This document shows, in pieces, positions 4,408 to 44,708 of a DNA stretch of 64,000 nucleotides (the stretch's first letter is position 1; the number at the start of each line of letters is the position of its first letter). The notes under the pieces were generated by a model. That model saw only the letters and a list, made by a program, of their open reading frames with translations, was not told the origin of the DNA and searched no databases. A program made the position numbers and the translations under genes. The DNA lies in the NCBI RefSeq assembly GCF_020405225.1, contig NZ_CP084472.1:496001-560000 (forward strand). The letters run 5' to 3'. This stretch comes from Natrinema sp. DC36 (GTDB taxonomy: Archaea; Halobacteriota; Halobacteria; Halobacteriales; Natrialbaceae).

Positions 4408-4552
4408 ACCGGCGTGCGGTGGCGCGCGCTGTGCCGCGGTGAATGCCAATGAAGCGCGGCGAAACGTCGTGCGAGGGATGAGCGAACGCTAGTGAGCGAA
4501 TCGGCTGGGGAGGGCGTGGCGATTCCCTGTTGCCACGATAGCAGAATGCGTC
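4408..4552. repeat. Dispersed intergenic repeat, copy A
   Basis: The left part matches copy B near 60664 (TGCGGTGGCGCGCGCTG). The right 50 bases (4498-4547 region, GGCTGGGGAGGGCGTGGCGA and on to TTGCCACGATAGCAG) match copy B at roughly nine of ten positions. The interior differs. The right part can fold as a GTGGC/GCCAC hairpin. A block ATGAGCGAACG..AGTGAGCGA (4478-4499) recurs in the insert at 44156-44217. Short minus-strand frames over it encode a WQxGIATPS peptide in both copies, which I regard as spurious. Confidence 0.7.
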
Positions 4553-42771: not shown

Positions 42772-42992
42772 ACCCGTCCGTGAGGCGCGATATCATATAA
42801 GCTCGCGGAAACGGCGACCGCACTGCGACGGACCGGTATCCGAGAGCGGTCATTGGGCCGTCGGCCGGTCGGACGCGATCGTCAGTCCAAGCTATCAACG
42901 GACGGAATAATCGCTGATCGCGACGTGTCATCTGTCGTGAGATCGGATCCGCAACCGCGGAGTATTAACGGATCCGACCGCTAGCTGTGTCT

Positions 42993-44159
42993 ATGAGTGA
43001 CGTACGTGTAGCAGGAACAGGGCTGACGCCGTTCGGAAACAGCCCCGAACGGACCGGCCGCGACCTCTTCGCCGAAGCGAGCATCACGGCCTTCGAAGCG
43101 AGCGGCGTCCCTCGAGACGACGTCGAGGCCGTCCTCTACGGCAACTTCATGGGTGAACTCTCCGAACATCAGGGCCATCAGGGACCACTGATGGCCGAAG
43201 CAGCGGGCGTACGGGCCCCCGCGACCCGCTACGAATCCGCGTGTGCCTCGAGCGGCACCGCGGTCCGCGAGGCCGTCAAACGGATCCGTAACGGGGAGAA
43301 CGACGTGTTGCTCGTCGGCGGCGCGGAACGGATGACCAACCTCGGTACCGCGGGCGCGACCGAAGCGCTCGCGATCGCCGCGGACGACCTCTGGGAGGTG
43401 CGGGCCGGCGTGACTTTCCCCGGCGCGTACGCGCTGATGGCCCAGGCCTACTTCGACGAATTCGGCGGCGAGCACGAGGATCTCGCCCATATCGCGGTCA
43501 AGAACCACGCGAACGCCCTGAACAACGACAAAGCTCAGTACCAGCGCGCGATCGAGGTCTCGGACGTCCTCGAGGCCCCGCCGGTCTCCGAACCGCTCGG
43601 ACTGTACGACGCCTGTCCGATCTCCGACGGCGCGGCCGCGCTCGTGTTGACGAGCGAATCCTACGCCGAAGAACACGACCTCGAGGCGCCCGTTGCGATC
43701 ACGGGCACCGGACAGGGCGGCGACCGGATGGCGCTGCACGACCGCGAGCATCTCGCCCGCTCGCCCGCCGCACGCGCGGCCGGCGAGGAGGCCTACGCCG
43801 ACGCCGGCGTCGACGCGGGCGACGTGGACCTCGCGGAAGTCCACGATTGCTTTACGATCGCCGAAGTGCTCGCGCTCGAGGCCCTGGATCTCGAGCCGAT
43901 CGGCGAGGGGATCTCGGCGGCCCGCGACGGGCGGACGACCGCGGACGGCGAGACGCCGATCAACCTCTCGGGCGGGCTCAAGGCCAAGGGTCATCCCGTC
44001 GGCGCGACCGGCGCGTCCCAGATCGCCGAAGTCACCGACCTGCTGGCCGGCGAGCATCCCAACAGCGAACACGTCGATGGCGCGACGACTGGCGTCGCCC
44101 ACAACGCGGGTGGCACGGTCGCCAGTGCGACCGTTCACGTGCTGGAGGTGGTCGCATGA
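42993..44159 (+). CDS. Thiolase-family acetyl-CoA C-acyltransferase
   Basis: A 388-residue thiolase. The nucleophile Cys is in YESACASSGTAV (near residue 88), with the second-site residues in INLSGGLKAKGHPVGATG (His) and TGVAHNAGGTVAS, where the usual C-terminal Cys-Gly-G is Asn-Ala-Gly, as in archaeal/SCP2-type thiolases. Such enzymes work with a DUF35 OB-fold partner, encoded next door, often in acetoacetyl-CoA formation for isoprenoids or in fatty-acid breakdown. I chose the ATG at 42993 over a GTG two codons upstream. Confidence 0.9.
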   Translation: MSDVRVAGTGLTPFGNSPERTGRDLFAEASITAFEASGVPRDDVEAVLYGNFMGELSEHQGHQGPLMAEAAGVRAPATRYESACASSGTAVREAVKRIRNGENDVLLVGGAERMTNLGTAGATEALAIAADDLWEVRAGVTFPGAYALMAQAYFDEFGGEHEDLAHIAVKNHANALNNDKAQYQRAIEVSDVLEAPPVSEPLGLYDACPISDGAAALVLTSESYAEEHDLEAPVAITGTGQGGDRMALHDREHLARSPAARAAGEEAYADAGVDAGDVDLAEVHDCFTIAEVLALEALDLEPIGEGISAARDGRTTADGETPINLSGGLKAKGHPVGATGASQIAEVTDLLAGEHPNSEHVDGATTGVAHNAGGTVASATVHVLEVVA

Positions 44160-44221
44160 GCGAACGAAGTGAGCGAATGCGGGTACGCCAGAGCTTCGCT
44201 CTGGAGGTGACGGAGCGATGA
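44156..44221 (+). CDS. Inserted 21-codon micro-ORF between thiolase and OB-fold genes
   Basis: ATG at 44156 overlaps the thiolase stop (ATGA), and the frame ends in a TGA that overlaps the OB-fold start (ATGA, 44218). The peptide starts MSERSERMRV and is basic. GGAGGTG ribosome-binding sites precede both starts (44144-44150 and 44203-44209). The 62-nt segment is bounded by direct repeats ATGAGCGA (44156-44163, 44218-44225) and contains the hairpin CCAGAG-CTTCG-CTCTGG (44188-44204). It looks like an inserted or duplicated start region; whether the peptide is made is unknown. Confidence 0.5.
   Translation: MSERSERMRVRQSFALEVTER
44203..44210 (+). promoter_or_regulatory. Perfect Shine-Dalgarno site of the OB-fold gene
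   Basis: GGAGGTGA, fully complementary to the 16S rRNA 3' end, lies 7 nt before the ATG at 44218. Its first two bases lie in the stem of the hairpin at 44188-44204, so pairing could partly mask it. Confidence 0.65.
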
Positions 44222-44610
44222 GCGACGCCGAATCCGTCGCCGACGCCGGCTTCGACGAGTGGCTCGAGGCTGCCGCGGACGGCGAGGCCTACTTCCTCGA
44301 GTGCGCCAACGGCCACGGCTCCCTGCCGCCGCGACGGGTGTGCCCCGACTGCGGCTCGACCGACCTCGCGGAATCGGAGCTGCCCGATACTGGGAATATC
44401 CAGACGTTTACCGTTACGCACGTTCCGACACCCGCTTTCGAGGAGGACGCTCCGTACGCGAATGCCATCGCCGACTTCGGCTCCGTGGGAATCACGGGAC
44501 AGGTTATCGGTGTGGACCCCGGAGACGTCGAGACCGGCATGACGGTCGAACTCGAGATCGCGATCTCCGAGACGACCGCCGAGCGAGTCATCGGATTCCG
44601 GCCGGCGTAA
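44218..44610 (+). CDS. DUF35 zinc-ribbon/OB-fold partner of thiolase
   Basis: A 130-residue protein: a rubredoxin-like zinc ribbon FLECANGHGSLPPRRVCPDCGSTDL (about 25-50) and an OB-fold (about 60-128). DUF35 proteins bridge acetoacetyl-CoA thiolase and HMG-CoA synthase in archaea, or assist other thiolases, binding the acyl-CoA pantetheine arm. It is coupled to the thiolase gene through the inserted micro-ORF. Confidence 0.88.
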   Translation: MSDAESVADAGFDEWLEAAADGEAYFLECANGHGSLPPRRVCPDCGSTDLAESELPDTGNIQTFTVTHVPTPAFEEDAPYANAIADFGSVGITGQVIGVDPGDVETGMTVELEIAISETTAERVIGFRPA

Positions 44611-44708
44611 CCGGTTCCTATTCGATCGGGGCCGTCGCGACGATCGCTTGACGCGCGGTTTCTTTCGGTCGCCAGAGGCTATTTTTACTTCGGCGAGTAC
44701 ATCACGCT

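Follow-up and report, generated by a model that had tools for sequence, protein, structure and literature searches.

A dispersed two-hairpin repeat that probably relays translational coupling between haloarchaeal genes

Results and discussion

At the junction of a thiolase-like gene and its OB-fold partner, the window (the whole stretch of 64,000 nucleotides from Natrinema sp. DC36 that was analysed) carries a short insert which, as judged from sequence comparison, is one member of an order-wide dispersed repeat family. We consider it quite probable that this repeat, itself probably mobile, relays termination-reinitiation coupling through itself. The evidence comes from the anatomy of the insert, its presence and absence between close relatives, its spread over unrelated gene junctions and, above all, the conservation of its reading frame.

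The insert between the thiolase and OB-fold genes

All features of the junction lie on the forward strand. The thiolase-like open reading frame (42993..44159, with an alternative GTG start at 42987; Pfam Thiolase_N and Thiolase_C_1) ends in VHVLEVVA, with its TGA at 44157-44159. Its partner, a ChsH2-like, DUF35-type OB-fold/Zn-ribbon gene (44218..44610; Pfam OB_ChsH2_C and zf-ChsH2), follows after a gap of 58 nt. The canonical unit of the cassette (44144..44209), which the closest relatives lack and which matches the family model R1 with 88.4 bits, has the order SD1, H1, H2, SD2. SD1 (GGAGGTG, 44144..44150; its core GGT is invariant in 41 aligned units) stands 5' of a micro-ORF of 21 codons plus stop (44156..44221, MSERSERMRVRQSFALEVTER). 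The ATG of the micro-ORF at 44156 overlaps the thiolase stop, and its TGA at 44219-44221 overlaps the OB-fold ATG at 44218; both overlaps are 4 nt. In hairpin H1 the 5' arm GTCGCAT (44151..44157), i. e. the spacer and the first two bases of the micro-ORF start, faces the 3' arm ATGCGGG (44177..44183) across a loop formed by a dispersed 19-nt motif (44158..44176, GAGCGAACGAAGTGAGCGA). Folding gives the second hairpin H2, CCAGAGC-TTC-GCTCTGG (44188..44204), and SD2 of the OB-fold gene (GGAGGTG, 44203..44209; in the window the full GGAGGTGA) equals the single SD of insert-free relatives. The folding z-score is -2.36 for H2 alone and -3.06 for the 64-nt element, and none of 200 shuffles was equally stable.

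A sequence-only reading of this DNA had described a 62-nt insert that repeats the initiation region and encodes a 21-codon ORF with ATGA overlaps at both ends. The ORF and the repeated region, with a second SD and a second ATGA, are confirmed. The two copies of CTGGAGGTG lie at 44142-44150 and 44201-44209, those of ATGAGCGA at 44156 and 44218. The 62 nt hold as the start-to-start distance; the SD-to-SD distance, like the net insertion relative to insert-free Natrinema relatives, is 59 nt. The 9-bp CTGGAGGTG lies on both flanks of the insert, as a target-site duplication of a MITE might, but in every unit it doubles as the functional SD. Comparison of the junction with insert-free relatives showed no terminal inverted repeat, and a search of 43800-44700 with 4227 Rfam models gave no match up to E = 1.

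Presence and absence at the orthologous junction

The comparison of the orthologous junction covered some 30 genomes from within the genus and the family. Most of them have one SD and one ATGA or TAATG/TGATG; seven have the insert. The closest insert-free relative (G018, CTGGAGGTGACGGATCGATGAGCGACGCC) is one base off the second SD-start of the window, and the net insertion against it is 59 nt. The thiolase tree requires at least three gains or losses on well-supported Natrinema branches: G000 stands next to the insert-free G018, G014 next to the insert-free G025, and five genomes with the insert form a clade. Among the named records the insert is found in Haloterrigena sp. H1, Natrinema hispanicum and N. 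limicola, whereas N. zhouii is without it. Outside the genus, Halostella pelagica has a near-copy of the window insert at its thiolase/OB-fold junction and Natrarchaeobius chitinivorans AArcht7 has two tandem units there.

A repeat family across Halobacteriales

The first search pattern was blind to reading frame (SD, RTGA, 30-60 nt, SD, RTGA). It was followed by TGAG..ACGCCRG..CYGGAGGTG, in which again nothing fixed the frame. The pattern search found the cassette in 60 of 392 genomes, belonging to 32 of 95 genera; the reversed control gave about 25 matches in total, and a fair share of the listed matches is evidently due to chance. With the covariance model R1, built from 41 units taken from junction copies, 167 of 293 Halobacteriales genomes matched at E <= 0.01, and more than 80 matches lay below 1e-9. 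In a sample of the phylum all 12 R1-positive genomes belonged to Halobacteriales. The taxonomic census combined pattern and model searches and used one genome per species and strict filters.

Strong R1 copies occur in many genera of the order at more than 20 kinds of gene pair. Besides thiolase/OB-fold pairs these are LeuC/LeuD, an aconitase-like pair, EtfB/EtfA, the two halves of glycine dehydrogenase (GcvP), HAD/aldolase, GFO/IDH pairs, ribosomal L18e/L13, an RPA-like pair, V-type ATPase C/F (AtpC/AtpF), PTS EIIA/HPr, COX1 with a small partner, ABC ATPase/permease, two MacB-like permeases, phosphonate-type ATPase/amidohydrolase, TetR/MatE, FeS subunit/EB_dh subunit and DUF58/transglutaminase. 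The flanking genes at these family junctions mostly encode subunits of one complex; PMC10666635 says the same of gene pairs with -4 overlaps in general. The bridged junction copies found by this search are all sense to both genes. Weaker R1 matches include two-hairpin copies outside junctions that have neither SD nor ORF.

Copies are more alike within a genus across gene pairs (0.564) than at the same gene pair across genera (0.503), a difference reached in none of 5000 permutations of the genus labels. This fits movement inside lineages, and conversion between copies would give the same. From the distribution alone, the element appears to move between junctions. The core of the earlier proposal, a mobile translation-coupling element, is well supported by the cassette at many unrelated Halobacteriales junctions with the bridge nearly always kept, and by a presence that varies between sister species at one site. 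Since haloarchaeal genomes carry the insert at many other gene junctions, its occurring nowhere else is excluded. Of 21 viral contigs that matched a loose pattern, the best reached 22 bits with the model, so that none counts as a member of the family. In the open-access literature we found no earlier description of the motif or of such a haloarchaeal repeat.

Two genomes (G036 and G288; L314, L315, L321 and L322) have 8-11 model matches each; those inspected belonged to a related two-hairpin form (GGTGTCCCCGTGAGCGAGCCTGCGAGCGAACGGGGGCTCGTCGGAGCTTGCTCCGACGGTG) and bridged no gene pair. At junctions of the FeS-subunit/EB_dh type (L294, L220, L324, L313), -8 overlaps (ATGNNTGA) replace ATGA at one or both ends.

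The 19-nt motif

The 19-nt block GAGCGAACGNAGTGAGCGA has 19 exact copies in the 5.1-Mb genome and its reversed control has none. It forms the H1 loop of the long form of the element and lies mostly in intergenic DNA of its own genome (L001-L030). The sequence-only reading had noted that the insert shares a block with a repeat at 4478. The shared block is indeed far above chance, but that both are the same element is not supported. The 4478 copy is related only in part: it lacks a second SD, contains one additional base, runs into a TAG after four codons, and matches R1 at positions 13-35 only, with 11.5 bits. The motif is often the loop of hairpins with differing complementary arms (GCGGTTC/GAACCGC, GCAGTTC/GAACTGC), sometimes in tandem. 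At 4478-4530 in the window and at L003 (G000:C1:3291602) a longer common block, GAATCGGYTGGGGAGGGMGTGGYGATTCCCTGTTGCCACGATAGCAG, lies 3' of it; this block is a separate dispersed repeat without the relay ORF.

Two covarying hairpins

In the family H1 pairs the spacer and micro-ORF start (GTCGCAT) with ATGCGAN, and H2 (CCRG..CYGG) lies 5' of SD2. In 41 distinct units 90.2% of the cells pair, compared with 78.8% after shuffling, and pairing drops to 27-41% in slid controls. Double-change cells number 73 against 19.8 in shuffled units, and none of 500 shuffles reached 73; the double changes fall on six of the seven H1 pairs and four of the seven H2 pairs (94.8% of H2 cells are paired). Both helices thus covary strongly, which could partly stem from palindrome correction at the DNA level.

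A possible interpretation is that the hairpins and the micro-ORF form an attenuator-like switch that would set the subunit ratio through translation rate or a bound factor, with the H1 loop as the putative binding site. The strong covariation of both helices, the conserved H1 loop and the many junctions between subunit genes agree with this. Yet the stems could also be preserved by palindrome correction, presence differs between sister species, and SD2 is computed to be as accessible as at insert-free junctions (0.32 vs 0.35, p = 0.40), so that we regard such active regulation as unlikely. The same figures give no support to a specific occlusion of SD2 by H2. The hairpin that the sequence-only reading described as overlapping the ribosome-binding site is real; its 3' arm overlaps SD2 by only 2 nt, and the upstream hairpin H1 had been missed. 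A general two-state switch, in which the H1 3' arm would pair with the downstream start, is not supported either, as the upstream spacer fits better (135 vs 99 pairs in 27 elements with differing spacers). As weaker copies sit off junctions without SD or ORF and the 19-nt motif is mostly intergenic, hairpins of this type did not evolve for coupling alone.

Conservation of the reading frame

By automatic scoring, one or more chained ORFs connect the co-directional genes in 82 of 86 distinct junction strings, mostly by -4 and in some cases by -8 or -1 overlaps. Three of the other four (L298 and L323, which are of the same junction type, and L311) have an in-frame N-terminal extension of the downstream gene from the upstream ATGA. 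The fourth, L206, was rejected as a false positive of the pattern. Four junctions (L312, L328, L286, L308) that automatic scoring had missed or misread proved to be bridged on inspection.

Among 54 distinct units, differences in the length of the 5' part are offset modulo 3 by those of H2 (35:0 vs 1:18; Fisher 2e-13, which overstates independence because many members are related), i. e. H2 length is adjusted so that the exit frame stays. One unit alone departs from this, and it is joined in frame to the unit that follows. Despite the kinship chance is implausible, since over 20 different types of gene pair are represented and changes are seen inside one genus. For example, G000 and G014, of the same genus, differ by two loop changes that cancel, +1 in H1 and -1 in H2; their peptides are MSERSERMRVRQSFALEV and MSERSDANATTPELALEV, and the exit is unchanged. 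The compensating indels keep the end frame and alter the peptide; thus it is the continuity of translation that is conserved and not the peptide. We infer that selection acts to preserve the bridge. The chain is retained in tandem arrays, which comprise 2, 3 or 5 units, with spacings of 50 or 59 (2 mod 3, as required for chained ATGA) or of 51 or 54 (0 mod 3, fused) and none of 1 mod 3.

These findings bear on three other explanations. The insert might simply separate the two genes, the OB-fold gene then starting independently from the strong SD2 and the micro-ORF being incidental. A full-length SD2 in the window and the frequency of independent starts among haloarchaeal genes are in line with this, but the near-universal bridge at many gene pairs, the modulo-3 compensation and the tandem spacings make it distinctly improbable. 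Still less probable is that slippage copied the initiation region in tandem on the spot, without any dispersed element. SD and ATGA are repeated at both ends and identical tandem units exist, yet the interior (the 19-nt loop, the H1 3' arm and GTACGCCRG) is no duplicate of the sequence at its junction and turns up again between unrelated genes as well as in other families. Slippage can plausibly explain no more than the tandem arrays. Retention of the cassette for the sake of a functional Arg-rich micropeptide can practically be dismissed: although the 20-aa forms are alike (MSERSERMRVRRSFAPEVVA), conservation lies in nucleotides and length, and members differ in which of two frames they use for the central nucleotides GCGAATGCGAGTACGCC, so that unrelated peptides of the MRVRR or ANAST type (MSRANASTPVLALEVVA) result; on this ground the reading was rejected.

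A probable relay through the micro-ORF

In Haloferax volcanii, according to PMC10666635, reinitiation is about halved at 13-14 nt between genes and near zero at 22-23 nt. Hence a 58-nt gap without a bridge should uncouple the two genes. In the relay which we propose, the two-hairpin repeat would insert at the ATGA overlap of a translationally coupled pair and supply a start overlapping the upstream stop, an open frame that runs into the old junction, and an SD. A ribosome terminating on the thiolase gene would reinitiate on the micro-ORF, translate through both hairpins, terminate at the second ATGA and then reinitiate on the OB-fold gene. Because the insert brings all these parts with it, coupling would be relayed and not lost; because the relay would pass through the micro-ORF, the frame would be kept but not the peptide. 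On the strength of the frame pattern, ribosomes are expected to translate the micro-ORF.

As to the benefit, we favour harmless or mildly tuning hitch-hiking of the element; control of the protein ratio, which the sequence-only reading considered, is hypothetical. More speculatively, it may represent an order-wide class of mobile archaeal translation relays that arose independently of the mycobacterial MIRUs and in which the hairpins and a frame-constrained, peptide-free micro-ORF actively tune reinitiation between complex subunits; we hold this as a tentative possibility.

Relation to known systems

In organisation the element resembles the MIRUs of Mycobacterium, although it belongs to an archaeal order and no sequence relation is expected. 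Both are short dispersed repeats found inserted at start codons, with an internal ORF that overlaps the flanking genes by 4 nt at DTGA/ATGA, and both have tandem copies at some loci (here 2, 3 or 5 units). MIRUs are also found in tandem and in one orientation inside operons; their units are reported to have been originally described as without dyad symmetry. In contrast, the haloarchaeal element has two covarying hairpins, an SD inside the unit and compensating indels. We treat it as working like a MIRU but set apart as a variant and not a member. According to a 2025 review (PMC12548453), MIRUs are repeats that seem to be mobile, enter at start codons and have their internal ORF coupled at -4. 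The harmless hitch-hiking proposed for MIRUs may, by analogy, apply here.

Termination-reinitiation in Haloferax volcanii (Huber et al. 2019, 2023; PMC6728339, PMC10666635) concerns the same -4/-1 junctions, complex subunits and the same clade. At the family junctions likewise, each step has a -4, -1 or -8 start-stop overlap. However, the accessible portions of these papers treat direct gene overlaps and mention no inserted relay element. Rickettsia palindromic elements, ERIC and other open-frame bacterial MITEs (PMC2229807) are also palindromic dispersed repeats tolerated by means of an open frame, but they fuse inside protein genes, whereas the haloarchaeal ORF lies in between two genes and overlaps them by its start and stop. 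A possible exception is L305 (G227:C6:71866-71933), a copy that apparently continues the frame of a Nif3-like ORF close to its N-terminus, much as a palindromic insertion inside a gene would. REP elements, tagged with GTAG/CGTC, are likewise dispersed hairpins in intergenic DNA. Their families conserve tag and stem, whereas in the present family conservation lies in the H1 loop and the stem shows compensating variation, and no GTAG or CGTC tag was seen in the junction units. Haloarchaea are not mentioned in the available text of the REP paper PMC3733652.

The element would be an archaeal parallel to MIRUs and would explain MSERSER-type micro-ORFs in haloarchaeal operons; as a compact component it also lends itself to the construction of coupled archaeal operons. 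Natural insertions of it are numerous and differ in presence between close relatives; they offer tests of chained termination-reinitiation over up to five micro-ORFs and of selection on reading-frame continuity alone. A natural test of serial reinitiation is provided by L231 (G261:C3:2636435-2636736), where five chained, nearly identical 59-nt units lie between the thiolase and OB-fold genes.
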